From assembly GCA_015478725.1 (NCBI GenBank), contig JADMIG010000013.1:1-64000 (forward strand): 64,000 bases of DNA. The letters are read 5' to 3'. Shown here piece after piece: positions 29,573-64,000 of the stretch (position 1 is its first letter; every line of letters starts with the position of its first letter). The notes below the pieces were generated by a model, which saw nothing but the letters and a program-made list of their open reading frames with translations, was not told where the DNA came from and made no database searches. A program made the translations under genes and the position numbers. This DNA is from Chloroflexota bacterium. GTDB lineage: Bacteria > Chloroflexota > Limnocylindria > Limnocylindrales > CSP1-4.

Positions 29573-29601
29573 AACCGACCTGACTTGTGGGTCGGTCGGT
29601 T
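29573..29601 (-). terminator. Hairpin between leader ORF and peptide ORFs
   Basis: On the minus strand AACCGACC pairs perfectly with GGTCGGTT across a 13-base loop, and the second arm runs into TTTT. It lies three bases after the stop of the 22-codon leader ORF. It may be a weak terminator or an attenuator that responds to leader translation. Confidence 0.45.
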
Positions 29602-29604
29602 GCA

Positions 29605-29673
29605 CTACTCGCTCCGCTCCACCCTAAGTGCCCATTTCAGGTGGTGCATCGGCGCGTCCGAGCGTCTTGACAT
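29605..29673 (-). CDS. Possible 22-residue leader peptide
   Basis: ATG 29671-29673 follows AGGAGGG by two bases, and a six-pair hairpin with a TGAA loop sits just upstream. The peptide starts MSRRSDAPMHHLKW and is rich in Arg, His and Glu. It is the first ORF after the promoter and ends right before the hairpin at 29573-29601, the geometry of translational attenuation. The tight start spacing lowers confidence. Confidence 0.35.
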   Translation of the reverse strand: MSRRSDAPMHHLKWALRVERSE

Positions 29674-46673: not shown

Positions 46674-46679
46674 TATGCT
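46674..46679 (+). promoter_or_regulatory. -10 element, leaderless hutH
   Basis: TATGCT ends seven bases before GTG 46687. Confidence 0.55.
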
Positions 46680-46686
46680 CCGGGGC

Positions 46687-49247: not shown

Positions 49248-49343
49248 ATGACAGCGACGGTCGGCGGCTCGGATCGGGGCACGGCGCTCCCGGGCGCCCG
49301 GCCCGTCCGCGCTCCGCGCGGCTCCGAGCTGACGTGCCGCGGC
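49248..49343 (+). pseudogene. hutU: Stranded 5' end of hutU (32 codons)
   Basis: ATG 49248 has GGAGG seven bases upstream. The frame begins MTATVGGSDRG and continues [18 protein letters not shown] up to TCRG, the N-terminus of urocanase, then leaves the family abruptly at base 49344, where antisense LhgO sequence begins. Translation would go on for about 190 meaningless residues to 49922. The downstream body of hutU resumes at 63702 after an exact copy of the last 69 bases. This fragment cannot make active enzyme. Confidence 0.92.
49275..49343 (+). repeat. 69-bp direct repeat, left copy
   Basis: Bases 49275-49343 are identical to 63633-63701. The shared stretch lies inside hutU codons 10-32. 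Bases just outside differ on both sides (T/G before, G/T after). The copies flank the island exactly. Confidence 0.98.
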
Positions 49344-49409: not shown

Positions 49410-50636
49410 CTACGGACGCGCGCGAGTGAGCTCGAATCGTTCGATGGCTCGCTCGGCGAGTTCCCGGCCGATCGCGAGCGACGCCGTGGCTGCGGGAGAT
49501 GGGGCATTCCGAACGTGAAGGACGTGGCGGTTGCCGCCGAACCGGAAGTCATCGACGAGCGTCCCGTCCGGATCGAGCGCCTGGGCGCGGACGCCGGAAG
49601 GCCCAAAGACCAGCTGGTCCGCTCGGAGCTCCGGAACGTAACGGAGGAGTGCCCCGAGGAACGCGGCTTTCGACCAGTCGCGCCACAACTCGACGGCTCC
49701 CATCCGCCAGAAGCGGGCCGCCAGGCGCAGGAACCCGCGATCGGTGAGTGTATCGACCAGGTCGCGCAGGTTCACGTCGGTCCGCCGGTAGCCGGTGCGA
49801 GCGAATGCCAGCACTGCGTTCGGCCCGGCCCAGACCTCACCGTCGATGCGCCGGGTGAAATGGACTCCGAGGAACGGGAAGCGTGGGTCGGCGACGGGGT
49901 AGATGAGGCCGCGGACGAGTGACCTAGCGTCAGCGGTGAGCGTGTAATAGTCGCCGCGGAACGGGACGATGCGATCACGCCCGGAGTCGCCGGTGAGCTT
50001 CGCCACCCGGTCGGCCCACAGCCCCGCACAGGCGATGACGTTGTGAGCGATGAGCGGACCGCGGCTCGTCTGAAGAACCCGATCCCTTCCGTGATCTGCG
50101 ACTCCCGTGACCCGGCGGGAGGTTTCGATCGTGCCGCCGGCCGATTGAATCTCGCGGGCGAGGGCCGCGACGACCAGCCGGAAATCGGTGATCCCGGTCG
50201 TGGGGCTCCAGAGGGCCCGGAGGCCGGCCGCGTGCGGCTCGATCTCTCGGATGCGCTCCGGGCCGATCTCCTCCAGCCGGGGCACGCCATTCGCGGTCGC
50301 CCGTCGCCGGAGTTCCTCCAGGCGAGGCAACTCGTCCAGCGTCAGCGCCACGACGAGCTTGCCGCACCGTTCGAATGGAATTGCGTGCCCCTCCAAGAAC
50401 GCCTCGAGTTCTGCCTTGCCCTCGCGGCACAGGCGTGCCTTCTGCGAGCCAGGGGCGTAGTAGAGGCCGGCGTGGAGGACGCCACTGTTGTGGCCCGATT
50501 GGTGGGCCCCCAGCTTCCCCTCCTGCTCGAGCACCACCATGCGCAGGTCCGGCCGCCGGCGCTGCAGTTGGACGGCCGTCGCCAGCCCGACGATCCCGCC
50601 GCCTATGATCGCCAGGTCGAAGCGGTCGCCGGTCAC
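49410..50636 (-). CDS. LhgO-like FAD-dependent 2-hydroxyacid oxidase
   Basis: 408 aa. The FAD loop GGGIVG lies at 12-17 and GHNSGVLHAGLYY at 48-60, the signature of L-2-hydroxyglutarate oxidase (LhgO). RGDYYTLTADARSLVRGLIY and the C-terminal FGPSGVRAQALD segment also match. Family members oxidise 2-hydroxy acids or related amines with FAD, passing electrons to oxygen or quinone. It is the last gene of the island operon; the GTG start lies 15 bases after the FMN oxidase stop. In this setting it may oxidise a hydroxy-acid intermediate rather than hydroxyglutarate. Confidence 0.85.
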   Translation of the reverse strand: MTGDRFDLAIIGGGIVGLATAVQLQRRRPDLRMVVLEQEGKLGAHQSGHNSGVLHAGLYYAPGSQKARLCREGKAELEAFLEGHAIPFERCGKLVVALTLDELPRLEELRRRATANGVPRLEEIGPERIREIEPHAAGLRALWSPTTGITDFRLVVAALAREIQSAGGTIETSRRVTGVADHGRDRVLQTSRGPLIAHNVIACAGLWADRVAKLTGDSGRDRIVPFRGDYYTLTADARSLVRGLIYPVADPRFPFLGVHFTRRIDGEVWAGPNAVLAFARTGYRRTDVNLRDLVDTLTDRGFLRLAARFWRMGAVELWRDWSKAAFLGALLRYVPELRADQLVFGPSGVRAQALDPDGTLVDDFRFGGNRHVLHVRNAPSPAATASLAIGRELAERAIERFELTRARP

Positions 50637-50651
50637 GCCGATACCGCGCGG

Positions 50652-51806
50652 TCAGGCCCCGGCCGCTGCGGAGGCCGCGCGGACGAGCAGCCCCGGCGAC
50701 AGGGATGCCGACCGCGGCACGCCTGCCAGCGCCAGGGCCAGGTCGTATTCCTTCACCAGCATGTCGAGGGCGAGCCCGACGCCTCGCTCGCCACCCCACG
50801 CGAGGGCCCACAGGATGGGACGACCAACCATCACCGCGCGAGCCCCCAGGGCGAGCGCCATCAGGATGTCGGTGCCGCGCCGGATGCCGCCGTCGAGGAT
50901 GACGGGGACGCGCCCGACGACCGCGTCGAGGACGCCCGGCAGGGCGTCGAGCGCGGCGATCGAGCTGTCGAGCTGGCGGCCGCCATGGTTCGAGACGCCG
51001 ACTGCGGCCGCACCGTGGTCGATCGCGGCGCGTGCGTCCACGGGATGCAGGATCCCCTTCACGATGACCGGCAGGCGCGTGTTGGCCGTCGTCCAGTCGA
51101 GATCCTCCAGGGTGTTCGCGGGCTTGATGTCGTCGTCGCCGTAGATATCGTCGCCCTTCGCATGGTCGCGCTTCGTTCCGCTACGGTGGATGTTGGCGTA
51201 CCCCACGCCCGGGGGGAGATGGAACTGGGTCCGCAGGTCCCGCTCCCGCCGACCGAGGATGGGAGCGTCGACCGTCAGGATGATCGCCTCGTAACCGGCT
51301 GCGGCCGCCCGGTCGAGCAGCTCGCGGTTGCGTCCAGGATCGCGCAGGAGATACAGCTGGAACCACGTGGGCGCGCTGGCCGCGCCCACGTCTTCGATCG
51401 TGGCGCTGGCGACCGTGGACAGGCTCATCGTGATCCCGCGAGCCGCGCAGGCGCGGGCGACGGCCACCTCCCCGTCGGGATGGGCCATCCGCTGGAGCGC
51501 CATCGGCGCCACCATGATCGGGGCGGGCCAGCGTCGGCCGAGCATCTCCACCGACGGGTCGCGTGTCTCGATGTCCACCAAGACGCGCGGAACGATGCGC
51601 CAGCGGCGGAACGCGTCCAGGTTGTCCGCCAGAGTCACTTCGTCGGCCGCCGCGCCGCCGAAGTACGCGGCGACCCCGGGATCGAGCTCGGCGAGGGCCA
51701 ACGCCTCGAACTCGGCGAGGTTGAGGGGCCCGGGCCCTCCCTCCACGGGCGCGATGCCGAGGTCCACCGGAGACCGGCCGACGGCCGGGCCGGGCCGGTC
51801 GGTCAC
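50652..51806 (-). CDS. FMN-dependent alpha-hydroxy acid oxidase
   Basis: 384 aa TIM barrel of the glycolate oxidase/lactate oxidase family. Key residues are visible: Tyr48 in AAYFGGAAADEVTL, Lys250 in PVIVKGIL, the catalytic His274 and Arg277 in VSNHGGRQLD, and FMN-phosphate residues in ILDGGIRRGTDILMAL. It oxidises a 2-hydroxy acid to the 2-oxo acid. GTGA overlap with the HisD-like gene shows tight coupling. A 2-hydroxy acid produced by that partner, or imidazole-lactate, are conceivable substrates. Confidence 0.9.
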   Translation of the reverse strand: MTDRPGPAVGRSPVDLGIAPVEGGPGPLNLAEFEALALAELDPGVAAYFGGAAADEVTLADNLDAFRRWRIVPRVLVDIETRDPSVEMLGRRWPAPIMVAPMALQRMAHPDGEVAVARACAARGITMSLSTVASATIEDVGAASAPTWFQLYLLRDPGRNRELLDRAAAAGYEAIILTVDAPILGRRERDLRTQFHLPPGVGYANIHRSGTKRDHAKGDDIYGDDDIKPANTLEDLDWTTANTRLPVIVKGILHPVDARAAIDHGAAAVGVSNHGGRQLDSSIAALDALPGVLDAVVGRVPVILDGGIRRGTDILMALALGARAVMVGRPILWALAWGGERGVGLALDMLVKEYDLALALAGVPRSASLSPGLLVRAASAAAGA

Positions 51807-53125
51807 CCCAGGCCCCGGATGCGCAGCGCTGCTGCGTGGGCGGGGAATCCCTCGTGGTCGGCGAGCGCGAGCGTCGCCGCCGCGAGCGACGCCAGTCCGG
51901 CGGCGGTGAGCCTGGCGATGGACGTGGTCGTCATGAAGGTCCGCGACGTGACGCCGCCGTTGATCCGGGCGAAGCCGCCGGTCGGCAGCGTCGCCGGCAC
52001 ACCGATCGTGAAGTTCGCGGCGCTCACCGGCGAATCCTGGCCGAGCAGCACCTCTCCCGCGTAGGTCAGTCGCGCGAGGGTCGCTTCCGGGTCTCTCGTC
52101 GCGATCTGAAGATGCTCCGGCGCGTAGATCCCGGCGAACTCGACCGCCTCGTCCATGGAGTCGAAGAGGAACGCACCACCCAGCACCGAGAGGGCCGATC
52201 GCGCGTACGACGCGCGGGGCTCAGGCAGGCGGGCGAGTTGGCCGGCGATCTCGTTGTCGACCGCCTCGACGACCGAGAGAGAGTCGGTGACAAGCAGCGC
52301 GGCCGAATCGGCGCCGTGTTCAGCCTCATTGAGCAGGTCGGCGGCGAGGCGGACGGGGTCGATCGACTCGTCGGCGATGATGAGGGACTCCGACGGCCCG
52401 CAGAGCATGTTCGTGGCGACCCCGTGGATCTGAGCCAGGACCTGGGCGGCCGTGACAGCCGGGCTGCCCGGCCCGACGATCTTCGTGACGCGTGGGATCG
52501 TGGCCGTGCCGAGCGCGACCGCGGCAACGCCGGCCGGCCCGTTCGCCCGCAGGACCCGCCGAATCCCGAGCTCCTTCGCGGTCGCGAGGACGCCAAGGTC
52601 GACCCTGTCCGTACCGGGCATCGGCGGCACGACGACCGTGATCTCTGGCACCCCAGCCACGACCGCCGGAGTGCCGATCATCACCAGGACTGACGGGTAC
52701 GAACCCTTGCCGCAGGGCACGAAGAGCCCGGCGCTGGGGATGGGCAGCATCCGCTCGCCCACCTCGACGCCGGGGCGGATCTCGCGGCGCCAGTCGGGGC
52801 TGGCCGCCAGCTGCGCCTCGTTGAACGAACGAACCGACGCAATCGCGAAGCGGATCGCATCGAGGAGTGGCGGCGAGAGCGCCGCGTGCGCCGCGTCGAT
52901 ATCGGCTTGGTCGACCAGCAGCGCATTCGGGTCGACCCGCACGCCGTCGAAGCGCTCGGTCGCGTCGGCCACGGCGGCGTCGCCGCGAGCTGCCACGTCG
53001 GCGTAGATCCGGCCGATGGATTCAAGCAGCTTGGGATCCAGGATCTGGCTCGTCGCGCGCTCGAGGATCCGGTTCCGCTCCGCGGCGTCGAGTTCCGCCC
53101 AACGGCGCAGGGTGAGCACCCTCAT
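51803..53125 (-). CDS. Histidinol dehydrogenase-like enzyme with altered zinc site
   Basis: 440 aa, full HisD length. GKGSYPSVLVMIGTPAVVAG and GPSESLIIADE are HisD family segments. Glu337-His338 in APEHLQ, the catalytic acid-base pair, is kept, and His430 near the C-terminus is kept. Two zinc ligands of true HisD are changed: Gln to Glu267 (NEAEHG) and Asp to Asn371 (SAANFTIG). This pattern recalls HisD relatives that oxidise other alcohols, such as sulfopropanediol dehydrogenase HpsN. It likely performs a two-step NAD oxidation of an alcohol to an acid. It overlaps its neighbours on both sides by four bases. Confidence 0.88.
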   Translation of the reverse strand: MRVLTLRRWAELDAAERNRILERATSQILDPKLLESIGRIYADVAARGDAAVADATERFDGVRVDPNALLVDQADIDAAHAALSPPLLDAIRFAIASVRSFNEAQLAASPDWRREIRPGVEVGERMLPIPSAGLFVPCGKGSYPSVLVMIGTPAVVAGVPEITVVVPPMPGTDRVDLGVLATAKELGIRRVLRANGPAGVAAVALGTATIPRVTKIVGPGSPAVTAAQVLAQIHGVATNMLCGPSESLIIADESIDPVRLAADLLNEAEHGADSAALLVTDSLSVVEAVDNEIAGQLARLPEPRASYARSALSVLGGAFLFDSMDEAVEFAGIYAPEHLQIATRDPEATLARLTYAGEVLLGQDSPVSAANFTIGVPATLPTGGFARINGGVTSRTFMTTTSIARLTAAGLASLAAATLALADHEGFPAHAAALRIRGLG

Positions 53126-53919
53126 GCAGTCCTCCCGCCATCGACGACGATGGCTGATCCGGTGACGTAGGACGCTTCATCGGAGACGAGAAATGCGATG
53201 ACTGCCGCGATCTCGTCGGGGTCCGCGACTCGCCCCAACGGTATCCCCCTGGTGATCGTGGCCATCGTGGCCGGGTCAGCCAGGTACCCCGCGGTCATCG
53301 GGGTACGAACATACCCCGGGCACACCGCGTTGACGCGGATCCGGCGGTCGGCGAGGTCGCGGGCCATCGAACGGGCGAGCAGCACGGCGCCACCCTTCGA
53401 GGCGTTGTAGTCGGCGAAGCCGACCTCGGCTACGAGGCCGTTCACGGACGCGACCAGAACTATCGCTCCGCCACCGCCATCGGCCGCCATCCGCCGACCC
53501 CCGGCCTGCGCGGCGACGAACAGGCCACGCACGTTGATGTCGAGCACGTGCATGAAGGCAGACGGGTCGAGGTCCAGGACGTCGCGGCCCTCGCCGTCGA
53601 TGCCGGCCGCCGCAACGAGCACGTCGAGTCGCGATCCGAACCGGGCGGCCTCGGCGACAGCGGCTGCCATCGCCTCAGCGTCGGTGACGTCCGCAGCCCT
53701 GCCCGTGACTGTGACGCCGGGAACGGCTGCGCGAATCTCGTCGAGAGCGCCGTCGAGGCGGTGCCGGTCGCGGCCGACCACGAAGACGCTCGCACCTTCC
53801 CTGGCCAATCGCGTGGCGGCAGCCAAGCCGATTCCGCTGGTGCCGCCGGTGACCAAGGCCGTCCGGCCGGTCATCCGCCGCATGATCAAGGAGCCCTGAT
53901 TCGGGGCCGGTTCCGTCAC
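53122..53919 (-). CDS. Short-chain dehydrogenase/reductase
   Basis: 265 aa. TGGTSGIG near 24-31 binds NAD(P), NVRG gives the structural Asn, and Ser158, Tyr171 (YNASK) and Lys175 form the catalytic set. VCPGYVRTPMTAGY and the C-terminal YVTGSAIVVDGG are typical of the classical group. It oxidises a secondary alcohol or reduces a ketone. Starts and stops overlap both neighbours (GTGA with the lyase, ATGA with the HisD-like gene), so the product is made in step with them. Confidence 0.9.
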   Translation of the reverse strand: MTEPAPNQGSLIMRRMTGRTALVTGGTSGIGLAAATRLAREGASVFVVGRDRHRLDGALDEIRAAVPGVTVTGRAADVTDAEAMAAAVAEAARFGSRLDVLVAAAGIDGEGRDVLDLDPSAFMHVLDINVRGLFVAAQAGGRRMAADGGGGAIVLVASVNGLVAEVGFADYNASKGGAVLLARSMARDLADRRIRVNAVCPGYVRTPMTAGYLADPATMATITRGIPLGRVADPDEIAAVIAFLVSDEASYVTGSAIVVDGGRTA

Positions 53920-55439
53920 GCGAGCGGCCCCACCGCCGCCTCGACGTCACGCAGGATCTCACCGGAGCGGACGAGCTCCGCGATCGCCGTGTGGTCGACA
54001 TGCAGCGGGCGGTCTTCGTCAAGATGAGCAACCTGGCGGCGGATGGCCCAGCGGGCGGCCTCGACACCGGCGCCGAACGTGAAGTTCCGGAAGTCGAGGG
54101 CCTGCGCGGCAGCCATCATCTCGATCCCGATGACGCCGTAGGCGTTGGCGAGGATTTGGCCGGTCTTGATCGCGGTATTCATGCCCATCGAGACGAAGTC
54201 CTCCTGGTCCGCAGCGGCCGGGATCGAGAGGATCGAGGCGGGCGCGGAGAGGATGCGCTGCTCGGTGATGAGCGTGTCGGCCGTGTACTGGCTGAGCATC
54301 ATCCCCGAGAACATCCCGGCACCCTTGGTCAGGAATGCGGGCAGCCCCATGCTGAGGGCCGGGTTCGTGAGCCGGTTGAGCCGGCGCTCGGAGAGGACGC
54401 AGACCATCGTCACGGCCGCGCCCACCATGTCCATGGGCAGGCTGACCGGTGTCCCTTGGAAGTTCGCGCCGGTGAGCGTGAGCCGTTCCTCGGGCAGGAA
54501 GATCGGGTTGTCGCCGACGCCGTTGAGCTCGATCTCCACTTGGCGGCAGGCAAAGGCGACGACATCGTGGGCGGCGCCGATCACCTGCGGCGACGAACGC
54601 ATCGAGTACGCGTCCTGGACCTTCGTCTTCACCTTGTCGGTCACCAGGTCGCTGCCGGCGATGCAGGCCATGATCGAACGAGCGCTCCGGATCGCGCCCG
54701 GGAAGCCGCGCAGCTCGTGGAGGCGCGGGTCATAGGGCTTGAGGTTGGCGAGCAGTGCTTCCAGCGTCATCGCAGCGGCGATCTCAGCCTGGCGCAGGAG
54801 CCGGTCGATGTCGTACAGCTCGATCGCGCTCATCGCGGTGAGCAGGTTCGAGCCGTTGATCGTGGCCAAGCCGTCGCGCGCCGCGAGGCCCGGGATCGGG
54901 ATCCCCGCCCGTTCCATCGCCACGCGTCCGGGCAGCCGCTCGCCCCGGTGGTAGGCCTCGCCCTCGCCCATGAGCAGAAGCGCCACCTGGGCCATCGGAG
55001 CAAGGTCGCCGGACGCACCGACGGAGCCCTTCTGGCAGACGACCGGGGTGACGTCGCGGTTGAGCATATCGAGGAGCGTCAGCGGGATCTCCAGACGAGG
55101 GCCGGAATTGCCGTGAGCATGGACGTTGACCCTGCCGGCGATCGCGGCCCGGACGGACTCGATCGAGGCGGGCTCGCCGATCCCTGCGGCGTGGTTGTAA
55201 ATGAGATAGCGCTGGAACTGCTCGACCTGTTGGTCCGTCAGGACCACCTCGGAGAACTCGCCGATCCCAGTGTTCACCCCGTACATGGTCTCGTGCGCGG
55301 CGAGCTTCTCCTCGAGCATCGTCCGGCAGGCGCGAATCCGTTTGATTGCCGCCGGATCGAGCGTCGCCGGTTCCCCGTCGCGGGCGATCCGGACGAGCTT
55401 CTCGATTGTGAGCGAGGAGCCATCAAGGACGATGGACAT
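53916..55439 (-). CDS. Second histidine ammonia-lyase homologue (MIO enzyme)
   Basis: 507 aa, normal HAL length. Ala142-Ser143-Gly144 (GSVGASGDLAPMAQ) forms the MIO group; Tyr53 is in MYGVNTGIGEF; DQEDFVSMG keeps the glutamate of HutH. The substrate-selecting pair is Asn82-His83 (IYNHAAGIG) where HutH has Ser-His, and GNFHG is replaced by ANFQG. It should remove ammonia from histidine or a close analogue. ATG 55439 is chosen over an upstream frame that would run into the regulatory region. It is the first gene of its part of the operon and faces the IclR gene. Confidence 0.88.
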   Translation of the reverse strand: MSIVLDGSSLTIEKLVRIARDGEPATLDPAAIKRIRACRTMLEEKLAAHETMYGVNTGIGEFSEVVLTDQQVEQFQRYLIYNHAAGIGEPASIESVRAAIAGRVNVHAHGNSGPRLEIPLTLLDMLNRDVTPVVCQKGSVGASGDLAPMAQVALLLMGEGEAYHRGERLPGRVAMERAGIPIPGLAARDGLATINGSNLLTAMSAIELYDIDRLLRQAEIAAAMTLEALLANLKPYDPRLHELRGFPGAIRSARSIMACIAGSDLVTDKVKTKVQDAYSMRSSPQVIGAAHDVVAFACRQVEIELNGVGDNPIFLPEERLTLTGANFQGTPVSLPMDMVGAAVTMVCVLSERRLNRLTNPALSMGLPAFLTKGAGMFSGMMLSQYTADTLITEQRILSAPASILSIPAAADQEDFVSMGMNTAIKTGQILANAYGVIGIEMMAAAQALDFRNFTFGAGVEAARWAIRRQVAHLDEDRPLHVDHTAIAELVRSGEILRDVEAAVGPLA

Positions 55440-55618
55440 CGGCAGCTTCCCTGGTGCGTCGGGCCGGGTTTTGGACGACACTGCTTGGGCACCGCCGGTG
55501 CGTGCGCGGCAGGTTCTCCGAACTGTCCAAGATGCTGGACTCAGCGGCATTCATGCGAGCAGCCTACGACGCCCTTCCGTACAAGAACAAGGGCGACGTG
55601 CCGAACTTCCGTCTAGTA

Positions 55619-55652
55619 TTGAAGACAGAGGCCATATCCGCCGGTTCTTCAA
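55619..55652. promoter_or_regulatory. Candidate IclR operator
   Basis: TTGAAGA (55619-55625) and TCTTCAA (55646-55652) form a perfect inverted repeat with a 20-base spacer, two helical turns between centres, in the divergent region between the lyase and the IclR gene. The wide spacing would suit a regulator with two DNA-binding domains per chain. Confidence 0.5.
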
Positions 55653-55673
55653 AACGCGCCTGCTGGAGGCGAT

Positions 55674-56639
55674 ATGGTGGACAGACAAACGCCCGTGCTC
55701 GGCGCCTCGAGGTCGGCCGACCGCGCACTGCGAGTCCTCGATCTCCTGGAACGCCGCAGCTACGGGCTGCCCACCATGGTCGTCGCGCGCGAGTGCGACA
55801 TACCGAAGTCGAGCGCTCACCAACTCCTGAACACGATGCGCGACCGTGGCTTCGTGAAATACGATCACACGGGGCGGACGTGGGCCGTCGGCGATCGGGC
55901 CCGTGAGATCGGCGCCGAGGTCCCGACGATCCCGACGGCTCTCCAGATCCTCGAGTCATTCGACCGGCAGGTCGTACGCCAGACCGCAGCATCGGTGGCC
56001 CAGAGCACCGGCCTGGATCTGGAACGGGTGCAGCGCACCCTCTCGGTCCTGGAAGCCGAAGGCCTTGTCGCGGTGGCCCCGGGGGGGCTCTACTCGCTGG
56101 GACTTCGTACAGTTCGGCTCGCCGCGCGGATCGAGCCGATCGAGCTTCTCCGGACGATCGCACTCCCCCTGCTCAGCGAACTCCGCGATCTAACTGGAGA
56201 AACGGCGAACCTCCTCGTCCAGGACGGGACCCAGTCCGTCTTCCTCGACCAGGTAGAGAGCCCTCGAGCGCTACGCCACAGCGGCTGGGCCGGACGGACG
56301 GTACCTCTCATCGGAACGGCAGGTGGAGCAGCTCTGTCCGGTCTTGGTGGGGCGCAAGTCGCGGCGGACGCGGTGGAGGCCGGGATCACCGCCGTTGCCT
56401 GTCGGATCTCGTGGTCGGGCCACCCGCCCGCTGCCGTTAGCATCACGGCCCCATCGTTCCGGTTGGTTGGGTCGGACCTCAAGGTAGCGATGCACCACGT
56501 TGAGGTGACGGCGGCGCGGATCGGGGCCGAGCTGACTGCGCAGCTGGCGAGTTCCCGATCGCGCGCGGCTGTGGTCGGATCCGCGCCGGAGCCGACCGGG
56601 ACCGGCGAGATGCATCGTTCGACGGACAATCGCCGATGA
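55674..56639 (+). CDS. IclR-type regulator with two winged-helix domains
   Basis: 321 aa, about 60 longer than usual. Residues 10-80 form an IclR winged helix (ADRALRVLDLLERRSYGLPT and SSAHQLLNTMRDRGFVKYD). A second one follows at 84-150 (IPTALQILESFDRQVVRQTA and VQRTLSVLEAEGLVAV). The ligand-binding domain starts near 155, with PLLSELRDLTGETANLLVQD, but is short at its C-end. It is the only plus-strand gene of the island and diverges from the lyase gene, the usual place for a local regulator. GGAGG lies four bases before the ATG. Confidence 0.88.
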   Translation: MVDRQTPVLGASRSADRALRVLDLLERRSYGLPTMVVARECDIPKSSAHQLLNTMRDRGFVKYDHTGRTWAVGDRAREIGAEVPTIPTALQILESFDRQVVRQTAASVAQSTGLDLERVQRTLSVLEAEGLVAVAPGGLYSLGLRTVRLAARIEPIELLRTIALPLLSELRDLTGETANLLVQDGTQSVFLDQVESPRALRHSGWAGRTVPLIGTAGGAALSGLGGAQVAADAVEAGITAVACRISWSGHPPAAVSITAPSFRLVGSDLKVAMHHVEVTAARIGAELTAQLASSRSRAAVVGSAPEPTGTGEMHRSTDNRR

Positions 56640-56667
56640 CAGTTCTGGTCAACGACGTTTCCGGCAA

Positions 56668-57663
56668 TCAGGCCCAGGGTGCCACCGCAAGCTTGAGGTG
56701 CTCTTGGTGTCCATCGGCGGCCGCGGCGACCAGCGCCGGAAGCTCCTCCAGACCAACAGTGCGGTCCACGACGGGCGCGAAGCGGCCCGTCTGGATGCGG
56801 AGCAACTCCAGCGTCTCGGGCATCTCGTCGGCGAAGACGTGAGCGCCGGTGATGACGATCTCGCGTGCGATGATCACGTTCGTGTCGAGTTCCTCTGGGT
56901 AGTGGTGGAGCGCGATGGCGGCGACGGTTCCGCCCGGCCGCACCATGAGGGCGGCCGTTGAGATCGACCCGCCGGAACCCGCGCAGTCGAAGCAGGCGTC
57001 GAACCCATCAGCGCCGGCAGGCAAGGCGCCCGGGGCGACGACCGACCGACCGGTGATCCTGCGCGCGACCTGCGCCCGCCCGCGATTCGGCTCCACAAGC
57101 AGGACCTCAATCGCCTCAGGGATTACGAGGGCCTGGAGCACGCCGATTGGACCGGCGCCGAGGATGGCAACGCGCGCAACGTCACGCGCGACAGCGCGCA
57201 GGCGGGACCAAGCGTGCAGCGCCACCGCGGTTGGTTCGGCGAGGACGGCCACCTCGAACGGCAGACCGTCTGGAATCGTCCAGACGTGATCGCCGGGCAC
57301 GACCACCGATTGGGCGAACCCACCGTCGCAGACCTCGCCCAGGAAACCGAGCTGTGGGCAGCGCTGGAGTTGTCCCTCGAGGCATCGGGCGCAGATGTGG
57401 CATGGGACCCGCGAGTCCAGCACGACCCGGCGCGAGGCAAGGTACTCGCAGCCCTCCCCGACCTTCTCGACGACTCCCGCCACTTCGTGACCTGGCACCA
57501 CGGGGAAGCGGGTCACGAACTCGCCCGTCCTCCAGACGTGCACGTCCGACCCGCACAGGCCGGCCCGGGCAACGCGCACCCGTACCTCGCCGAAGCCTGG
57601 ATTCGGGTCCGGCAGCTCGCGCACGCGGAGGTCCCGAGGTCCGGCGAGGACGGCTCCGATCAT
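56668..57663 (-). CDS. Zinc-dependent medium-chain dehydrogenase
   Basis: 331 aa. The catalytic zinc residues are Cys37 (GLCGSD), His59-Glu60 (PGHE) and Glu142 (LAEPTAVA); the structural zinc cysteines are 88, 91, 94 and 102. GAGPIGVLQ is the NAD loop. Closest by feel are sorbitol, threonine and galactitol dehydrogenases, which oxidise a secondary alcohol of a polyol. In an island with dehydratase and aminotransferase relatives it could oxidise a side-chain hydroxyl. Its ATG lies 31 bases after the HisC-like stop. Confidence 0.88.
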   Translation of the reverse strand: MIGAVLAGPRDLRVRELPDPNPGFGEVRVRVARAGLCGSDVHVWRTGEFVTRFPVVPGHEVAGVVEKVGEGCEYLASRRVVLDSRVPCHICARCLEGQLQRCPQLGFLGEVCDGGFAQSVVVPGDHVWTIPDGLPFEVAVLAEPTAVALHAWSRLRAVARDVARVAILGAGPIGVLQALVIPEAIEVLLVEPNRGRAQVARRITGRSVVAPGALPAGADGFDACFDCAGSGGSISTAALMVRPGGTVAAIALHHYPEELDTNVIIAREIVITGAHVFADEMPETLELLRIQTGRFAPVVDRTVGLEELPALVAAAADGHQEHLKLAVAPWA

Positions 57664-57694
57664 CGTCGGTGTCGGTCCATCGTTCGCCGCACCC

Positions 57695-58762
57695 TCATCG
57701 TGCCCGAACGGTCCGCTCGATAACCCCGACGACCCGCCGCATGTCGTCCGGCCGCCCCAGGCTCACCCGTGCCCATCCGGGCACGCCGAGGGTCGCGCCC
57801 GGCCGAACAGTGATGCCCTCCGCGAGGAGCGCCACCGGCCAGCTGTCGCGATCCTCGACTAGGAGGAAGTTCGCCTGCGACGGCACGTAGCCGAGCTCGA
57901 CACGGTCACACGCGTCGACGAGGACCGACATCGCGACTGCCGTCTCACGAACCGTCATCTCGACGTGGGCCGCGTCTTCCAGCGCGGCAGCCGCTGCGGC
58001 CAGCGATATCGCGGTGACATTGAATGGTGGGCGGATCCGCTCAACCGGCTCCAGCACGGCCGCTGAGGCGATCGCGTACCCGACGCGGAGGCCAGCCAAG
58101 CCGTAGGCTTTTGAGAAGGTTCGGGTGACGACGAGGCTCGGGTGCCGGTCGAGAAGGTCGACGGCGGTCAGGCGGATCGCCGGGTCCATGAACTCGTAGT
58201 AAGCCTCGTCGACGACGACCATGCAGTCGGACGGAACGCGCTCGACGAAGGCTCGCAGGTCGTCCGGCCGGACGGCGGTCCCGGTCGGGTTGTGCGGGTT
58301 CGCCACGAAGACGCAGCCCTGCGCCACGGCCGCCGCCGCCATCGCCTCCAGGTCGTGTGTATGGTCGCGGAGTGGCACGAGCACGATCTCGGCACCCATC
58401 GATCGCGCCGCGACCGCATGGATGCCGTATGGCGGCGCGGCCATCACGGCGCGTCGCCCGGGCTCCAGGTATGCCCGGGTCAGCAGGTAGAAGGTTTCGT
58501 CGCTGCCGGTGCCGAGCAGGATCTGGTCTGGCGCGACGCCGTGTCGCTCGGCGAGCCGCGCTCGCAGCAAACTCGACCCCCCGTCGGGGTAGCGCTCGGC
58601 GCTTTCGAGCGCAGTTCGAGCCGCCTCGACGGCCCGCGGCGAAGGACCAAACGGGTTCTCGTTCGAGGCGAGCTTGAGGGCGCGATCCGCGGACGCAGCT
58701 GGCGCGGCGCCCGGCACATACGGGACGATCGCGTCGAGGGCGGCGCGTGGCTTGATCGGCAC
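57695..58762 (-). CDS. HisC-like PLP aminotransferase
   Basis: 355 aa, the length of histidinol-phosphate aminotransferase. LKLASNENPFGPSPRAVEA opens the fold; ANPHNPTGT, VVDEAYYEF (Asp185) and the Schiff-base Lys218 in RTFSKAYGLAGLRVGY are all present. GTG 58762 is chosen because AGGGG lies ten bases upstream and the HisC consensus starts here; an ATG at 58852 would overlap the HisB-like gene. It should transfer an amino group between an imidazole-acetol-like ketone or aromatic keto acid and glutamate. Confidence 0.88.
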   Translation of the reverse strand: MPIKPRAALDAIVPYVPGAAPAASADRALKLASNENPFGPSPRAVEAARTALESAERYPDGGSSLLRARLAERHGVAPDQILLGTGSDETFYLLTRAYLEPGRRAVMAAPPYGIHAVAARSMGAEIVLVPLRDHTHDLEAMAAAAVAQGCVFVANPHNPTGTAVRPDDLRAFVERVPSDCMVVVDEAYYEFMDPAIRLTAVDLLDRHPSLVVTRTFSKAYGLAGLRVGYAIASAAVLEPVERIRPPFNVTAISLAAAAAALEDAAHVEMTVRETAVAMSVLVDACDRVELGYVPSQANFLLVEDRDSWPVALLAEGITVRPGATLGVPGWARVSLGRPDDMRRVVGVIERTVRAR

Positions 58763-58806
58763 CTGTTGAGTCCCCTGGAACGTCGAGAGCAGGATGGGTC
58801 GCCTGA

Positions 58807-59451
58807 TCAGTCGAGGGTCCCCTTGACTCCGACGGTCAGACCGGCTCGCCATGGAAGAGGCGCGAAACAGCCGCGGAGTGCGACCGCGAACGCCCGTGCA
58901 GCGGCCTCCCAGGAGTGGTGCGGATCACGGCCTTCGATAACCCGCAACCGGAGCGTGCAGCGAGCTCCCTGGGCGAACCCCTCATAGAACGCGACCATGT
59001 CGGCGCCGGTCGTGTCCTCGACCTGCTCCACGCGTGAGCCCTCCGCCTTGCGGTCGATGAAGTGCATCGACCGACCCTCGAACGAGAGCGCACAGAACGC
59101 AAGCGCCTCGTCCATCGCCATCCATGCCCCAGAAGCTCCTTCGACCCCGTCGTCGATGGCGCGCGTGATCAGGGCGCCGATCCCGAGCCCGAGCGCCATC
59201 CCGATGTCCTCGCAGACGACGTGCCGCAGGGCGAACGTCTTCGCCGCGAAGCGGACGTTCAGGTTGAGCCCGCCATGCCAGGCGATCATCTCCAGCATAT
59301 GGTTGAAGAAGGCGATCCCGGTGTCCAGCGACGGCTCCTGGCGCGGCCCGAGCCCCACGTCCAGGCGGACGTCCGCCTCACGGGTTGTCCGCGCCACGAC
59401 CGCGTGGCCGTCCCTGATCTCGACCTGCATTCCACGGTAGCTCTCGGGCAT
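58807..59451 (-). CDS. HisB-like (imidazoleglycerol-phosphate dehydratase family) protein with changed active site
   Basis: 214 aa, the size of stand-alone IGPD. Family marks: RTTREADV, DTGIAFFNHMLEMIAWHG, ED after the first metal motif, MDEALA, HHSWEAA near 178-184 and VKGTLD at the end. Metal ligands His51, His77, Glu81, His178, His179 and Glu182 remain, but the second His of the first HHxxE is Val78 and the His in TLH is Arg168. Phosphate contacts also fail: the Arg before MDE is Ala and PSxKG is VGVKG. It is likely a dehydratase or isomerase on an unphosphorylated or different substrate. GGAGGG precedes the ATG. Confidence 0.85.
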   Translation of the reverse strand: MPESYRGMQVEIRDGHAVVARTTREADVRLDVGLGPRQEPSLDTGIAFFNHMLEMIAWHGGLNLNVRFAAKTFALRHVVCEDIGMALGLGIGALITRAIDDGVEGASGAWMAMDEALAFCALSFEGRSMHFIDRKAEGSRVEQVEDTTGADMVAFYEGFAQGARCTLRLRVIEGRDPHHSWEAAARAFAVALRGCFAPLPWRAGLTVGVKGTLD

Positions 59452-59466
59452 GGGACCCTCCAGAAG

Positions 59467-60539
59467 TCAGGGGCTGACGAAAACGGGCATCCCGCTGATA
59501 GCACGCCGCGGGTTGTCCACGAGGAGCCGGTCGACCTCGGCGGCCGACAGGCCCGCCGTCCGCAGTCCAGGCGCAACTCCGGTCAGCAGGTGGTCGTAGC
59601 CCCGACCGCCGAACGCGTGGAGCTGGGTCTTCGTGCAGACGTCCTGGGCGAGGAGGAGGCGATCGGACCAGCCTTCCTCGTGGGCCGCGACGACGGCGGC
59701 GGTCCGCGAGGTGTCGGACGGCATGCCGCGGTCGCCGTAGGCGTCCTCGTCGCCCCAGATGTCGATGCCGACGAAGGCTCCGCGAGCGGCGAGCGAACGC
59801 GCATAGGCCACGTCTGCCAGTGACGGGTCGAGATGACAGAGGACGACTCGATCGAGGTCGACGCCGGCGTGCTCGCATCGGTCCAGGACATCGTGGCCGG
59901 CCCGGCCCCACGGGTCGAGATGAACGAATAGCGTCCGCCCGGTCTCGCGCTGGGCGGCGCACGCACCGCTGAGGACGCGTGCCTCGGCAGGGTCGATCGG
60001 GTTCGAGGTGCCGATCTCGCCAATGACGCCGGCCCGGATTCCGTCGGGACCAGCCAAGAGGTCCAGGAGGATCTCGTCTCGGAACGCCTCGGGTGGCGGT
60101 CGTGGAGCTCCCGCGGATGAGCGGCCGCGATGTAGTGGCCGCAGCCCATGACGACAAGCACTCCGGTTGCTTCGCTAACGGTCCGCAGCCGGGTCGGCGA
60201 CCGCCCGATGTCGTCGAGAGTCAGGTCGACGAGCGTTCGCCCTCCGGCGGCCCGAAACCGCCCGACCTCCTCAATCGCGACCGAGAGGTCGTCGAGGATA
60301 AGGTTGTCCCGAACGGCGAACGGATTGGCCCGCACGGTCGCCTCCGTCGACGCGTCCACCCGGCTCGCGGCGGGCGCGCGGCCGTCGTCGTCCGTCGGCG
60401 GATCAAACCAGCACTCGATGTTGATGAAGATATGCTCGTGCGGACTCGTCGGTCCGAGCGCGCTGGCTGCCACGGGCCCCGTGACGGTCCAAACCATCCC
60501 GGGCATGTCGCTCACTGAAATGCGGCTGGGGGTATTCAC
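59467..60539 (-). pseudogene. Phosphotriesterase-family hydrolase with a frameshift
   Basis: The N-terminal part (GTG 60539, overlapping the ATPase stop) has the metal motif SPHEHIFIN (His34, His36) and reads to MGCGHYIAAAHPRELHD. The rest of the family sequence continues in another frame from PPPEAFRDEILLDLL, with GEIGTSN, FVHLDPWG, LCHLDPSLAD and LLAQDVC metal residues. One base is missing near 60099-60102. Without it a 357-residue hydrolase (lactonase or phosphodiester/ amide hydrolase) would be made. It is either a young pseudogene or a sequencing error; otherwise the reading is clean. Confidence 0.85.
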
Positions 60540-61357
60540 CCGATCCCCGCGGCGACGCCAGGTTCTGCCCGGAGCGACTCTTCGCGGATGGACGCAAGGA
60601 TTCGGCCCCGGAGCGCGGCGAAGGCCGGCGTCTCCTGGATCTCGAAATGGCGCGGCCGGGGGAGGTCGATCGAAAGCTCTTCCTTCAGTCTCCCCGGTCG
60701 GTTGGACATGATGACCACGCGGTCCGAGATGAAGACCGCTTCGTCGACGTCGTGGGTGACGAACATCACGGTGAGGCGATGGGACTCCCAGACGCGCGTC
60801 AGAAGCTCCTGCATGAGAAGCCGTGTCTGGGCATCAAGGGCGCCAAATGGCTCGTCCATCAGCAGGATCCTCGGCCGGTAACAGAGCGCGCGGGCGATCG
60901 CCACGCGCTGCTTCATTCCGCCGGAAAGCTGGCGCGGATACGCGTCAGCAAACCCGCCGAGACCCACCACGTCGAGGTGTTGGCCGGCCGCCTTCCGCCG
61001 CTCGCTCGCGGTCATCCGCTCACCCCGGAGCGCAAATTCAACATTGGCACGGGCGGTCATCCAGGGAAAGAGCGTGTATGTCTGGAAGACGACGCCACGG
61101 TCGCGTCCGGGCCCACCGATCGGCTTGCCGTCGACGAGAACGACGCCCTTGGTCGGTTCGATCAGGCCCGCCACGATCGAAAGAAGTGTGGACTTGCCGC
61201 AGCCCGACGTTCCGGCGATCGAGACGAACTCGTTCTCGGCCAGTCGCAGCGAGATCGGTCCCAGCGCGGCGACTGGTCGCGGGCCCTCGAAGATCTTCTC
61301 GAGGTCGCGAATCTCGAGCCGTGGAACGTCTCCCTCGCGGACCGCGCCAATCGTCAT
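60536..61357 (-). CDS. ABC importer ATPase, SsuB/TauB type
   Basis: 273 aa. Walker A GTSGCGKST at 49-57, Q loop in VFQTYTLFPWMTARANVEF, signature LSGGMKQR near 144, Walker B ILLMDEPFGALD near 164 and the switch His in FVTHDVDEAV. The PFGALD and LFPW features place it with nitrate/sulfonate/taurine importers. ATG 61357 overlaps the permease stop as ATGA, and its stop overlaps the hydrolase start. It energises uptake with the next two gene products. Confidence 0.93.
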   Translation of the reverse strand: MTIGAVREGDVPRLEIRDLEKIFEGPRPVAALGPISLRLAENEFVSIAGTSGCGKSTLLSIVAGLIEPTKGVVLVDGKPIGGPGRDRGVVFQTYTLFPWMTARANVEFALRGERMTASERRKAAGQHLDVVGLGGFADAYPRQLSGGMKQRVAIARALCYRPRILLMDEPFGALDAQTRLLMQELLTRVWESHRLTVMFVTHDVDEAVFISDRVVIMSNRPGRLKEELSIDLPRPRHFEIQETPAFAALRGRILASIREESLRAEPGVAAGIG

Positions 61358-62196
61358 CGGTCCGCCCACCGGAAGAACAGCCGACCCAGTGCCTTCATGG
61401 TCTGGTCCGTGACCAGCCCCAGGATTCCCAGCACGATGAGGTAGCCGATGATGATGTCCGTTTCGAAGTAGCGAGGCGCGAGGTTTATCCGGTAACCGAG
61501 CCCCGAGGTGGCTGCCACGAGCTCGGCGAGAACCACCCACGTCCAGGCCCATCCGAGCGAGATCCGCAAGGTGTCCCAGATTCCCGGTGCCGCCGACGGG
61601 GCCACGATTCGGGCCAGGATTGCGCCGTCGCGCATCCCCAGGGTCCGCCCGATGTTGACAAGGTCAAGGGGGACGCGCTTGACGTTGTCCATTATCAGGA
61701 GGACTTCTTGGAAGAACGTTCCGATGAACACGATGGCGAACTTCTGGGTATCGTCGATGCCGATCCAGACGATGGTCAGCGGGACGAAACCGACGACCGG
61801 CATATAGCGCACGAAGTCGATGAAGGGCTCGATGAGGGCTTCCGCGAACCGGTACGTCCCGATGAGGATGCCCATCGGGACAGCAATGACGGTCGCGAGG
61901 ACGAAGCCCACGATGATCCGCCAGACGGACACCGAGATGTCGGACCAGAGCGTGCCGTCGGCGGCGAGCCTGCCGAGCCGATCGAGGACCTCGATCGGGC
62001 CCGGCAGGAACAACACCGGAGCAAGGTTCAATGCCCGAATCAGGAGCCACACCGCGATCAATGCGGCGAATGCGAGCACAGCTGTCCCCACGTAGCCGCG
62101 AACGGTGATCGTGCCGCCAATCGCGAATGCGGGGTGCCGCCGGCGCCCGGCTGATGCCGGGTCGACGCCGGAACGGGAATCGGCGGGTCCGCTCAC
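61354..62196 (-). CDS. ABC importer permease, SsuC/TauC type
   Basis: 280 aa, six helices (BPD_transp_1). The N-terminal 30 residues are cytoplasmic; LFLPGPIEVLDRLGRLAADG is a family mark and TLGMRDGAILARIVAPSAAP the EAA-like loop that docks the ATPase. It forms the channel for the substrate delivered by the lipoprotein encoded upstream. It overlaps the ATPase gene by four bases and follows the binding protein after 25 bases. Confidence 0.93.
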   Translation of the reverse strand: MSGPADSRSGVDPASAGRRRHPAFAIGGTITVRGYVGTAVLAFAALIAVWLLIRALNLAPVLFLPGPIEVLDRLGRLAADGTLWSDISVSVWRIIVGFVLATVIAVPMGILIGTYRFAEALIEPFIDFVRYMPVVGFVPLTIVWIGIDDTQKFAIVFIGTFFQEVLLIMDNVKRVPLDLVNIGRTLGMRDGAILARIVAPSAAPGIWDTLRISLGWAWTWVVLAELVAATSGLGYRINLAPRYFETDIIIGYLIVLGILGLVTDQTMKALGRLFFRWADR

Positions 62197-62221
62197 CGGT
62201 GAATCCCGGGCGCGGTGACCG

Positions 62222-63316
62222 TCAAGGGGCGACGGCGAGAATGAAGCTCGTGTTCATGACCTTCGTTTCGTCGACTGGCTTGGTGATGATTCCCGCGTCG
62301 GTGGCGATCTTCTTCACCTCGGTCAGCGTCTTGAGGTAGGCGCCGCCGGTCATGAGCTGCTTCGCCTCGTCCAGGCTGTAGATCTGTACGCCTTCGAAGG
62401 CGGTCTTGAGGTCACCGGGGTTAGCGCCAACGGCCTTCTCGATGATCGCCTGACCGTCGGTCGGGTTCGTGCGAAGATAGGCGACGGAGTCGCCCCAGGT
62501 CTTGAGGAGGGCGTCCACCTGGCCCGGATGGCTTGCGAGGTAGTCGTTCCGGACCACGAACACGTCCCCGATGAGACCGGGCTCCTGGGCCGCCTTATAG
62601 ATCAGCTTGAAGCTGCTGTCCTGCTGGAGCGCGGTCGTGAGGTAGGGCTCATACGTGACGGCGACGTCCACCTTCTTGGTAATGGCGAGGATCCCCGCCT
62701 GGGCTGCTGGCGTCGGCACCTTGACGATGTCATTGATCGTCATCCCGTTCTGGGATAGGGCGTACCGCAGCAGGATGTCCGACGTCGTGCCTTCTTCGTA
62801 GGCGACCTTCTTGCCCTTCATATCGGCGATCGAGTTGATGCCTGGGCCGGCGAGAATCGCGTCGGCGGCATTGGACTGGTCGAGGAGGAGAACGATCGTG
62901 ATGGGAGTCCCTTGGGAGATCAGACGCAACGCGGTGTGAGTCGCGATGTTGGCACCGTCGAGCTGCCCCGAGACGAGAGCTGCGTTGATTTGGTCGTCCG
63001 TGTCGAAGCTCGTCACCTTCGCCGTCAGGCCATTCTGCGCGAACAGGCCCTTGCTCATGGCGATCCACCAGGGGCCGTAACCAAGCCACGGTTCGGTGCC
63101 CATCCGAAAGGTGCCGGCTTCGGGGCTCGGGAGTGCGGACGAGACGGCCGACGGCGCCGAAGACGCGCTCGACGCGGCCGCTGGCGAAACCGTCCCCGGG
63201 GCCGTGCTCGGACTCGGCGATACCGCGCCTGAGCACGCAGCGATGAGTAGCGCGAGGCCCGCGGTGAGTGAGACGACGACCCTAGGGCGCTGGTTCCGAA
63301 CCTGAGCGACGGCCAT
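62222..63316 (-). CDS. NMT1/THI5-like substrate-binding lipoprotein
   Basis: 364 aa. A signal peptide ends at the lipobox LLIAAC (Cys near residue 28), followed by a Ser/Pro/Ala linker of about 40 residues. The binding domain begins GTFRMGTEPWLGYGPWWIAM, a GYGPWWIA feature of the nitrate/sulfonate/pyrimidine-precursor group, and has DGANIATHTALRLISQGTPI lining the pocket. GGAGGAGG lies five bases before ATG 63316. It captures an unknown small molecule outside the cell for the permease and ATPase. It is the first gene of the island operon. Confidence 0.9.
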   Translation of the reverse strand: MAVAQVRNQRPRVVVSLTAGLALLIAACSGAVSPSPSTAPGTVSPAAASSASSAPSAVSSALPSPEAGTFRMGTEPWLGYGPWWIAMSKGLFAQNGLTAKVTSFDTDDQINAALVSGQLDGANIATHTALRLISQGTPITIVLLLDQSNAADAILAGPGINSIADMKGKKVAYEEGTTSDILLRYALSQNGMTINDIVKVPTPAAQAGILAITKKVDVAVTYEPYLTTALQQDSSFKLIYKAAQEPGLIGDVFVVRNDYLASHPGQVDALLKTWGDSVAYLRTNPTDGQAIIEKAVGANPGDLKTAFEGVQIYSLDEAKQLMTGGAYLKTLTEVKKIATDAGIITKPVDETKVMNTSFILAVAP

Positions 63317-63374
63317 GGTGACCTCCTCCACGATCTGTCTCGCAAGCGAAACGCGGCTGGCGGTGACGTTGGAG

Positions 63375-63611: not shown

Positions 63612-64000
63612 GTGACAGCTCAAAGAACGCTGCGGGGCACGGCGCTCCCGGGCGCCCGGCCCGTCCGCGCTCCGCGCGGCTCCGAGCTGACGTGCCGCGG
63701 CTGGCAGCAGGAGGCCGCGCTGCGGATGCTCATGAACAACCTCGACCCGGAGGTGGCCGAGGATCCCGACGCGCTCGTCGTCTACGGCGGCACGGGGCGG
63801 GCCGCTCGAAGCTGGGAGGCGTTCGACGCGATCGTCCGGGAGCTCCGCTCGCTCGCCGACGACGAGACCCTCCTCGTCCAGAGCGGCAAACCGGTCGGTG
63901 TCTTCCGGACGAACGAATGGGCGCCCCGGGTCCTCATCGCGAACTCGAACCTCGTCGGCCGATGGGCGACTTGGGAGACGTTCCGCGAGCTCGAGCGGGC
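63612..64000 (+). CDS. hutU: Urocanate hydratase, restarted copy, cut by window edge
   Basis: GTG 63612 has GGAGG (63598-63602) nine bases upstream. The eight codons MTAQRTLR come from the island side, then the 69-bp repeat gives [18 protein letters not shown], and from 63702 genuine urocanase follows: [71 protein letters not shown]. Urocanase turns urocanate into imidazolonepropionate using tightly bound NAD. The changed N-terminus is outside the conserved core, so the enzyme is probably active. Its transcription now starts from the island side. The C-terminus is beyond 64000. Confidence 0.93.
63633..63701 (+). repeat. 69-bp direct repeat, right copy
   Basis: Identical to 49275-49343. In this copy the repeat is part of the open hutU frame, preceded by a new start. 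Confidence 0.98.

Follow-up and report, generated by a model that had tools for sequence, protein, structure and literature searches.

Histidine biosynthesis is regarded as a single invariant route. Here, we analyzed a 64,000-nucleotide stretch of DNA from a Chloroflexota bacterium (positions 1 to 64,000 of contig JADMIG010000013.1, assembly GCA_015478725.1; hereafter the window, its genome being G000), in which an operon-like gene set surrounded by histidine-utilization (hut) genes encodes relatives of the histidine-biosynthesis enzymes HisB, HisC and HisD, named here HisB2, HisC2 and HisD2. In other bacteria, relatives of HisB2 and HisD2 seem to have replaced the normal HisB and HisD, pointing to an undescribed route to histidine. 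We propose, with a little less than even confidence, that HisB2 and HisD2 form a two-enzyme module converting imidazole-glycerol, probably without phosphate, towards histidine, for degradation in the window and for biosynthesis elsewhere. No publication describing a HisB2-HisD2 route to histidine was found in the open-access literature.

Gene Content of the Operon and Its Surroundings

As delimited from open reading frames (ORFs) and profile searches, the set spans positions 49410-63331 and lies on the minus strand, apart from one IclR-type gene on the plus strand. A first-pass annotation of this DNA had listed HisB-, HisC-, HisD- and HAL-type genes, oxidoreductases, an importer and an IclR regulator, all of which were recovered in place. 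HisB2 (58807-59451) is a homologue of imidazoleglycerol-phosphate dehydratase (IGPD; PF00475, 4e-30) with an altered metal and phosphate site, HisC2 (57695-58852) is a HisC-family aminotransferase scoring above cut-off (TIGR01141, 307.5 bits) and HisD2 (51803-53125), a histidinol dehydrogenase homologue with altered Zn ligands, passes the family model TIGR00069 (372.6 bits, cut-off 243.8). Along with them lies HAL2 (53916-55550), a second histidine-ammonia-lyase-type enzyme (TIGR01225, 493.2 bits, below the cut-off of 539.15). Elsewhere in G000, a third aromatic-ammonia-lyase-type match (PF00221; G000:C5:120097-121404) consists of two adjoining pieces and is perhaps a broken gene.

The importer comprises a lipoprotein of SsuA/NMT1 type serving as substrate-binding protein (SBP; 62222-63331), which falls just below the cut-off of TIGR01728 (152.7 versus 163.5 bits) and shares 47-79% identity with the SBPs adjoining HisB2 in relatives and 53-55% with its counterparts in two proteobacterial plasmid operons. 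It is completed by an SsuC/TauC/SaoP-like ABC permease (61354-62196), whose matches stay under curated cut-offs and which is kept together with the SBP in relatives, and by an ABC ATPase (60536-61552), whose listed ORF overlaps the permease and whose family match starts at residue 77-100, its true start being probably near 61360. Regarding the hydrolase of the first-pass annotation, a PTE-family gene is indeed present (59467-60539; PF02126 and NF007373 match its two pieces), but it is frameshifted: two tblastn segments place it in different frames (59583-60539 and 59467-60057), and several relatives carry it as a single ORF. The oxidoreductases are MDR, a Zn alcohol dehydrogenase (56668-57663; PF08240, PF00107), an SDR dehydrogenase (53122-53919; PF13561), an FMN-dependent 2-hydroxyacid oxidase/dehydrogenase (50652-51806; PF01070, 3.4e-123) and an LhgO-type FAD oxidase (49410-50636; NF008726, 510.9 bits, above the cut-off of 299). 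The IclR-type regulator (55674-56639, plus strand) has two helix-turn-helix regions (PF09339 at 14-64 and a TrmB-type match at 103-137), the N-terminal one being extra, and a truncated IclR_C match (profile positions 9-72 of 174).

The operon is placed between hutH (46675-48351, plus; TIGR01225, 663.8 bits, above cut-off) with a GNAT-like gene on one side and the main part of hutU on the other. A 5' fragment of hutU (49248-49343, plus; start codon inferred) ends in the left copy (49275-49343) of a 69-bp direct repeat, whose right copy (63633-63701) is 100% identical. The gene had first been read as interrupted; since a full-length urocanase ORF without stops (TIGR01228 positions 2-545, 967.6 bits, cut-off 375) continues from the right copy and beyond the end of the window, hutU was probably not lost: its start would be duplicated, the gene not destroyed and likely still functional. 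Further along, the contig carries an MFS gene, a formiminotransferase and hutI, the last two named from their sequence. With a perfect repeat flanking the insert and a metagenome-assembled genome (MAG) in 151 contigs, the position of the operon inside hutU could be an assembly join, in which case the hut link in the window would mean little. This we find hardly credible, as the operon of another Chloroflexota genome (G191) adjoins the same PGM, UptA and GNAT-like genes and as hut linkage was found independently in five actinobacterial loci. The hutU of G191 is on a separate contig, beside a HAL2 orthologue; in G190 and G192, hutU comes after the GNAT-like gene, the operon not being between them. 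At 29585-29668 (minus), away from the operon, the window also holds a cyclic di-GMP-II riboswitch aptamer (64.2 bits).

Separate Lineages With Altered Active Sites

Canonical hisF, hisH, hisB, hisC, hisD, hisG and hisA lie together elsewhere in the genome, on G000 contig C1 (435847-442393), and the reading of the window genes as ordinary biosynthetic copies was rejected on this ground. In phylogenetic trees, HisB2 (18 rows) separates from canonical HisB (55 rows), and HisD2 (17 rows) from canonical HisD (6 rows), with branch support of 100/100 each; the HisB tree and residue table leave aside the frameshifted L039 and L040, cut by a contig end, and the HisD tree leaves aside HisD2 rows that are absent or shorter than 330 residues. 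Judged from sequence and genome context, HisB2, HisC2 and HisD2 of the window are paralogues and not biosynthetic copies, in line with the first-pass annotation on both counts, i.e., his genes elsewhere in the genome and a phylogeny placing HisB2 and HisD2 outside the canonical clades. The predicted model of HisB2 adopts the IGPD fold (mean pLDDT 88.7) and matches 2ae8_B (Foldseek 2.6e-16; Z 25.4 over 172 aligned residues, root-mean-square deviation 1.4), while its sequence stays under the NCBIfam HisB equivalog cut-offs (best 107.5 bits versus 231).

HisB residues are numbered here after Arabidopsis IGPD2 and HisD residues after E. coli, and we take H74 to be a ligand of Mn1. Column by column, all 18 HisB2 sequences show H74V, Gly or Ser in place of R99, K177R and S199G, and the H145 position holds Ala in 17 and Gln in one; E21, H47, H73, E77, D108, R121, H169, H170, E173 and K201 are kept. 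All 55 canonical HisB keep H74, R99, K177 and S199, with His (21), Glu (32) or Asp (2) at the H145 position. The full metal-ligand set, in which three His and one Glu coordinate each Mn, is thus incomplete in 18/18 HisB2 with the H74 and H145 positions changed, and of the phosphate-site residues R99, K177, R121, S199 and K201, only R121 and K201 are intact, K177 being Arg. Following the residue roles, including those of the Mn2 ligands, given in a study of IGPD (PMC4509728), the phosphate site of HisB2 is, on sequence, dismantled and its metal site partly so. The loss of R99 and S199 throughout agrees with the unphosphorylated substrate suggested by the first-pass annotation.

Regarding HisD2, Q259E is found in 17/17 sequences and D360N and H367A in the 16/16 aligned rows, the six canonical HisD compared having Gln259, Asp360 and His367; His262, the catalytic Glu326 and His327, Glu414 and His419 are kept where aligned. 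The Gln/His/Asp/His set of Zn ligands is therefore incomplete, both His remaining where aligned. With the roles described in two HisD papers (PMC5585171, PMC11382572), these changes indicate an altered Zn shell beside the substrate amine and a conserved imidazole-binding residue, Glu414. For HAL2, all 11 listed active-site positions, i.e., the MIO (4-methylideneimidazole-5-one) triad and histidine-binding residues, are identical in the 12/12 sequences compared. The imidazole substrate put forward in the first-pass annotation is consistent with the conservation in both enzymes.

Distribution and Neighborhoods

HisB2 was found in 7/177 genomes of the class of the window, with an E-value gap from 1e-72 to 1e-25 before the next match, and a scan of genome contigs gave 19 HisB2 loci (6 Chloroflexota and 13 others, mostly actinobacterial by title). 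Among 396 genomes drawn evenly over the phylum of G179, the only carrier was G179 itself, and the module is thus rare in this phylum. A search for the same neighborhood, as proposed at the outset, returned related clusters in further MAGs, 6 of them from Chloroflexota and 5 actinobacterial; the operon recurs beyond chance. HisB2 and HisD2 are neighbors or near neighbors at nearly all loci. Twelve loci, counting the window, are of a cluster type, with importer and/or HAL, versus 8 bare HisB2-HisD2 pairs. The 12 clusters contain the importer in 11 instances, SDR in 9, PTE in 9, HAL in 8, HisC2 in 5, MDR in 4 and the FMN oxidase in 4, all of them lower bounds as several contigs end inside the cluster.

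On plasmids, the best HisB2 match reached 36.5% identity, which is the level of canonical HisB, and viral contigs gave one match at 33%. In Rfam scans, nine actinobacterial HisB2 loci (L042 and L043 aside) gave no match reaching the gathering score and ten further loci gave rRNAs only, and upstream control by a T-box or other Rfam element was rejected for these loci.

The distribution of HisC2 bears on the order in which the enzymes act. The first-pass annotation had placed HisB, HisC and HisD in this order, and such an unphosphorylated copy of the biosynthesis can be written: HisB2 would turn imidazole-glycerol into imidazole-acetol, HisC2 would give histidinol, HisD2 histidine and HAL2 urocanate. 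Indeed, HisC2 scores above the HisC cut-off, and in the window, L030, L031 and L041 its gene separates HisB2 from the rest; in G191, hisB, hisC and hisD have been lost jointly while the three paralogues remain, HisC2 being the only strong HisC of this genome. Yet HisC2 accompanies only 5/12 clusters and 0/8 bare pairs, so that HisB-HisC-HisD does not form a conserved core, no HisC above the curated cut-off was found in any of ten small-genome actinobacterial MAGs carrying the pair (best 187.9 bits versus 276.55), and the Zn ligands of HisD2 differ from those holding the histidinol amine. We regard the histidinol order as rather unlikely.

Sole Copies in Small Genomes

None of these ten MAGs (G180-G189; 1.2-2.1 Mb, several with lakes named in their titles) has an IGPD- or HisD-family match other than HisB2 and HisD2. 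Eight of them have hisG, hisA and hisF, while G181 has none of the three and G187 has hisF, whose match runs across a stop towards its end, and a contig-edge hisA. The eight carry hisG-hisH-hisA-hisF as an uninterrupted run that includes neither hisB nor hisD, the relative G177 having hisZ-hisG-hisD-hisB-hisH-hisA-hisF. Where present, hisG, hisH, hisA, hisF and hisIE are open with median dN/dS of 0.06-0.14 (crude values, at dS ~1.5), which indicates that hisG/H/A/F of the eight MAGs are intact and under purifying selection; in the small-genome loci, dN/dS is 0.026 for hisB2 and 0.073 for hisD2. The purely catabolic role first assigned to the set does not fit these genomes. As a separate observation, dS among seven of the genomes (L048, L049 and kin) is 0.6-0.75 for hisB2/hisD2 versus ~1.5 for hisG/H/A/F, as if the pair had been shared more recently. 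L045 and L053 are titled Bifidobacterium breve; their genomes, G181 and G189, belong to an order that also contains MAGs titled Solirubrobacterales, and the titles look wrong.

The order of G184 was surveyed in 232 genomes: a HisB of canonical strength (E <= 3e-51) is present in 198 and HisB2 alone in 10, the rest showing an unresolved intermediate match (2; G384, G249), weak matches only (6) or none (16). Without correction for shared ancestry, canonical HisB is missing from 10/12 HisB2 carriers versus 22/218 non-carriers. It is missing also from the Chloroflexota G191, G193 and G195; in G191 and G195, a hisF-hisH-hisG-hisA operon lacks hisB, hisC and hisD, and in G191 HisB2, HisC2 and HisD2 alone remain. 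The HisD, HisA/F, HisG and HisC searches covered 17 genomes each, without G190, G192 and G194. One further MAG, G194, holds two different canonical hisB-hisC fragments (G194:C251 and G194:C126; L226, L227), perhaps through contamination.

Such sole copies could also be expected if HisB2 and HisD2 were diverged enzymes of the ordinary phosphorylated route, acting on imidazoleglycerol phosphate (IGP) and histidinol, with the cluster serving mainly histidine supply or salvage and lying by hut for regulation. The ten genomes with no other HisB or HisD, eight of them with hisG/A/F, agree with this explanation, as does G180, in which an IMPase-type gene, named from its sequence, lies close to both the pair and the his operon. 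It is nonetheless unlikely, given the loss of R99 and S199 in every HisB2, the canonical copies coexisting with HisB2/HisD2 in G000, G177, G178 and G179, and the importer and HAL/hutU genes in the same clusters.

Linkage to Histidine Degradation

In the five actinobacterial loci, hut genes stand beside HisB2-HisD2, and the hut connection drawn in the first-pass annotation is borne out beyond the window. L046 reads HisB2-HisD2-hutH-hutU-hutI-amidohydrolase-hutF, L041 has hutH-hutU with a hutF-like ORF further along, L051 has hutH and hutU, L043 has hutH, hutF- and hutI-like ORFs and hutU straight after HisD2, and L042 has hutH as the only hut gene on its contig. The HALs of L041, L046 and L051 exceed the TIGR01225 cut-off. 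An ergothioneine/thiourocanate route was rejected for these tested loci, as their hutU scores lie far above the thiourocanate models, which remain below their own cut-offs.

Across genomes, hutU occurs in 11/12 of the cluster type (the exception being G194) versus 0/8 with bare pairs, and HAL likewise in 11/12 (the exception being G195) versus 0/8. Of the eight sole-copy MAGs with hisG/A/F, G182 alone has hutU; G182 and G187 combine sole-copy status with hut linkage. As the simplest common denominator, we infer a histidine-making module that supports growth in genomes lacking hut and forms the entry to a degradation pathway in those with importer and hut genes.

Related Operons and the Nature of the Substrate

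Four proteobacterial plasmid operons (Klebsiella, Pacificitalea, Rhizobium and Sinorhizobium), sampled from 380 matching records, encode HisD with the same Glu/Asn/Ala signature as HisD2. All four include an FMN hydroxyacid oxidase, SDR, MDR and an importer (of PotD type in 2/4) and lack HisB2, and 2/4 have a HisC-type gene. In the place of HisB2, they carry a ~430-aa protein (L217, 11148-12437; L215, 10163-11458; L216, 10323-11627; L218, 18551-19939), with a weak APH match under cut-off in one of the four; this protein may phosphorylate the imported compound. In the tolC mutant of S. meliloti, hisC3 (-11.4), hisD2 (-10.6) and adjacent transporter genes are down with hutU, hutG and hutH, and the study contrasts hut with the histidine-biosynthesis genes (PMC2912261). 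We matched these locus names to the region by gene order, the record carrying no annotation. As far as searched, no published function was found for the S. meliloti pSymA hisC3-hisD2-type operon.

HpsN, a HisD relative working beside HpsO and HpsP, oxidizes a diol with a hydroxyl at the position of the histidinol amine, according to two studies (PMC11382572, PMC11131964). Because E/N/A-signature HisD operons come with an FMN oxidase, and by analogy with HpsN, a diol substrate is favored for HisD2. The diol might even be devoid of imidazole, e.g., a sulfonate resembling 2,3-dihydroxypropane-1-sulfonate (DHPS): HisD2 would then be HpsN-like and SDR and MDR would be HpsO/HpsP-like, the enzyme types being those of the hps operon (PMC11131964, PMC11382572), and the SsuA-type importer includes an SBP of a family, TIGR01728, named for sulfonates. 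Against it, HisD2 has GK(G/A)SY or GK(G/A)SF and not the HpsN motif G-R-Y-(A/S)-H reported in PMC11382572, DHPS dehydrogenases score below true HisDs against HisD2, no sulfolactate lyase was seen in the operon, and hut linkage and sole-copy status point to histidine. A sulfonate system, which the first-pass annotation had raised as its alternative, is very unlikely and was discarded as the principal explanation on the absence of the motif.

A Possible Route to Histidine

Gene content, hut linkage, separate clades, active-site changes and sole-copy status can all be read in the sequences. From them we infer the substrate, its lack of phosphate, the order of the HisB2 and HisD2 steps and the roles of SDR, MDR, PTE and the oxidases. 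In the window organism, the SsuA-type ABC system would import the substrate, with the polyol-type dehydrogenases MDR and SDR handling its stereoisomers. HisD2 would oxidize the terminal CH2OH to a carboxylate, converting imidazole-glycerol to imidazole-glycerate, which HisB2 would dehydrate to imidazolepyruvate, R121, K201 and Arg177 possibly holding the substrate carboxylate. Histidine would then be formed by HisC2 or by a general aminotransferase encoded elsewhere; of interest here, E. coli is reported to convert supplied imidazolepyruvate to histidine (PMC6096522). HAL2 would produce urocanate and the surrounding hut genes would complete degradation. Where the pair occurs elsewhere without importer, HAL or hutU, it would end histidine biosynthesis from the HisF/HisH product after the loss of hisB and hisD. 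Because the pair is adjacent while HisC2 is often missing, the HisB2 and HisD2 steps are maybe consecutive; that oxidation by HisD2 comes first is our tentative choice, made at close to an even call. The imidazole and Hut half of the first-pass annotation thus stands, while its HisB-HisC-HisD order and exclusively catabolic role do not.

A possible, though doubtful, formulation goes further and makes of this pair a second ending of histidine biosynthesis: IGP would be dephosphorylated first, HisD2 would form imidazole-glycerate, HisB2 imidazolepyruvate and a transaminase histidine. This would be the sole route in the small-genome actinobacteria group and in some Chloroflexota without hisB/hisC/hisD, the same enzymes with importer and hut serving the use of imidazole polyols, e.g., in the window organism.

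Several observations weigh against a HisB2-HisD2 module acting on imidazole-glycerol. With metal-ligand positions H74 and H145 lost, HisB2 possibly performs no IGPD-type chemistry on imidazole, and with R121, K201 and Arg177 remaining, it could still bind phosphate. Imidazole-glycerol is not, to our knowledge, an abundant nutrient. The roles of PTE and HAL2 are unexplained, G000 already carrying hutH. Canonical HisB is present in G000, G190, G192 and G194, and canonical HisD in G193. The small-genome MAGs belong mostly to one clade, in which replacement may have been one event, and the MAGs behind sole-copy status are fragmentary. If true, the proposed module would add a new ending to histidine biosynthesis; it would also account for MAGs that are called auxotrophic for histidine in appearance only, and bring to light an imidazole nutrient that has been overlooked.

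Relation to Known Systems

Compared with HisB, HisC and HisD of histidine biosynthesis, the enzymes described here are homologous, with the IGPD fold, catalytic residues and an apparent histidine-making role in common. However, they form separate clades, the phosphate site and part of the metal site of HisB2 appear dismantled, the Zn ligands of HisD2 are changed, importer and hut linkage are added and most loci have no HisC. Regarding the Hut pathway (HutH, HutU, HutI, HutF/FTCD), the operon lies in a complete hut locus and relatives have hut beside HisB2-HisD2, but Hut begins at histidine, whereas the operon would add earlier steps that start from a different compound. DHPS catabolism (HpsN, HpsO, HpsP) likewise combines a HisD-fold four-electron diol dehydrogenase, partner dehydrogenases and its own transporter; here, the HpsN motif is absent, no sulfonate lyase was seen and HisB2 and HAL/hut genes are present. 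Finally, the pSymA hisC3-hisD2 operon of S. meliloti and its kin share the E/N/A-signature HisD, SDR, MDR, FMN oxidase and ABC importer with the operon of the window, and differ from it in having, instead of HisB2, the ~430-aa protein with at best weak APH similarity.

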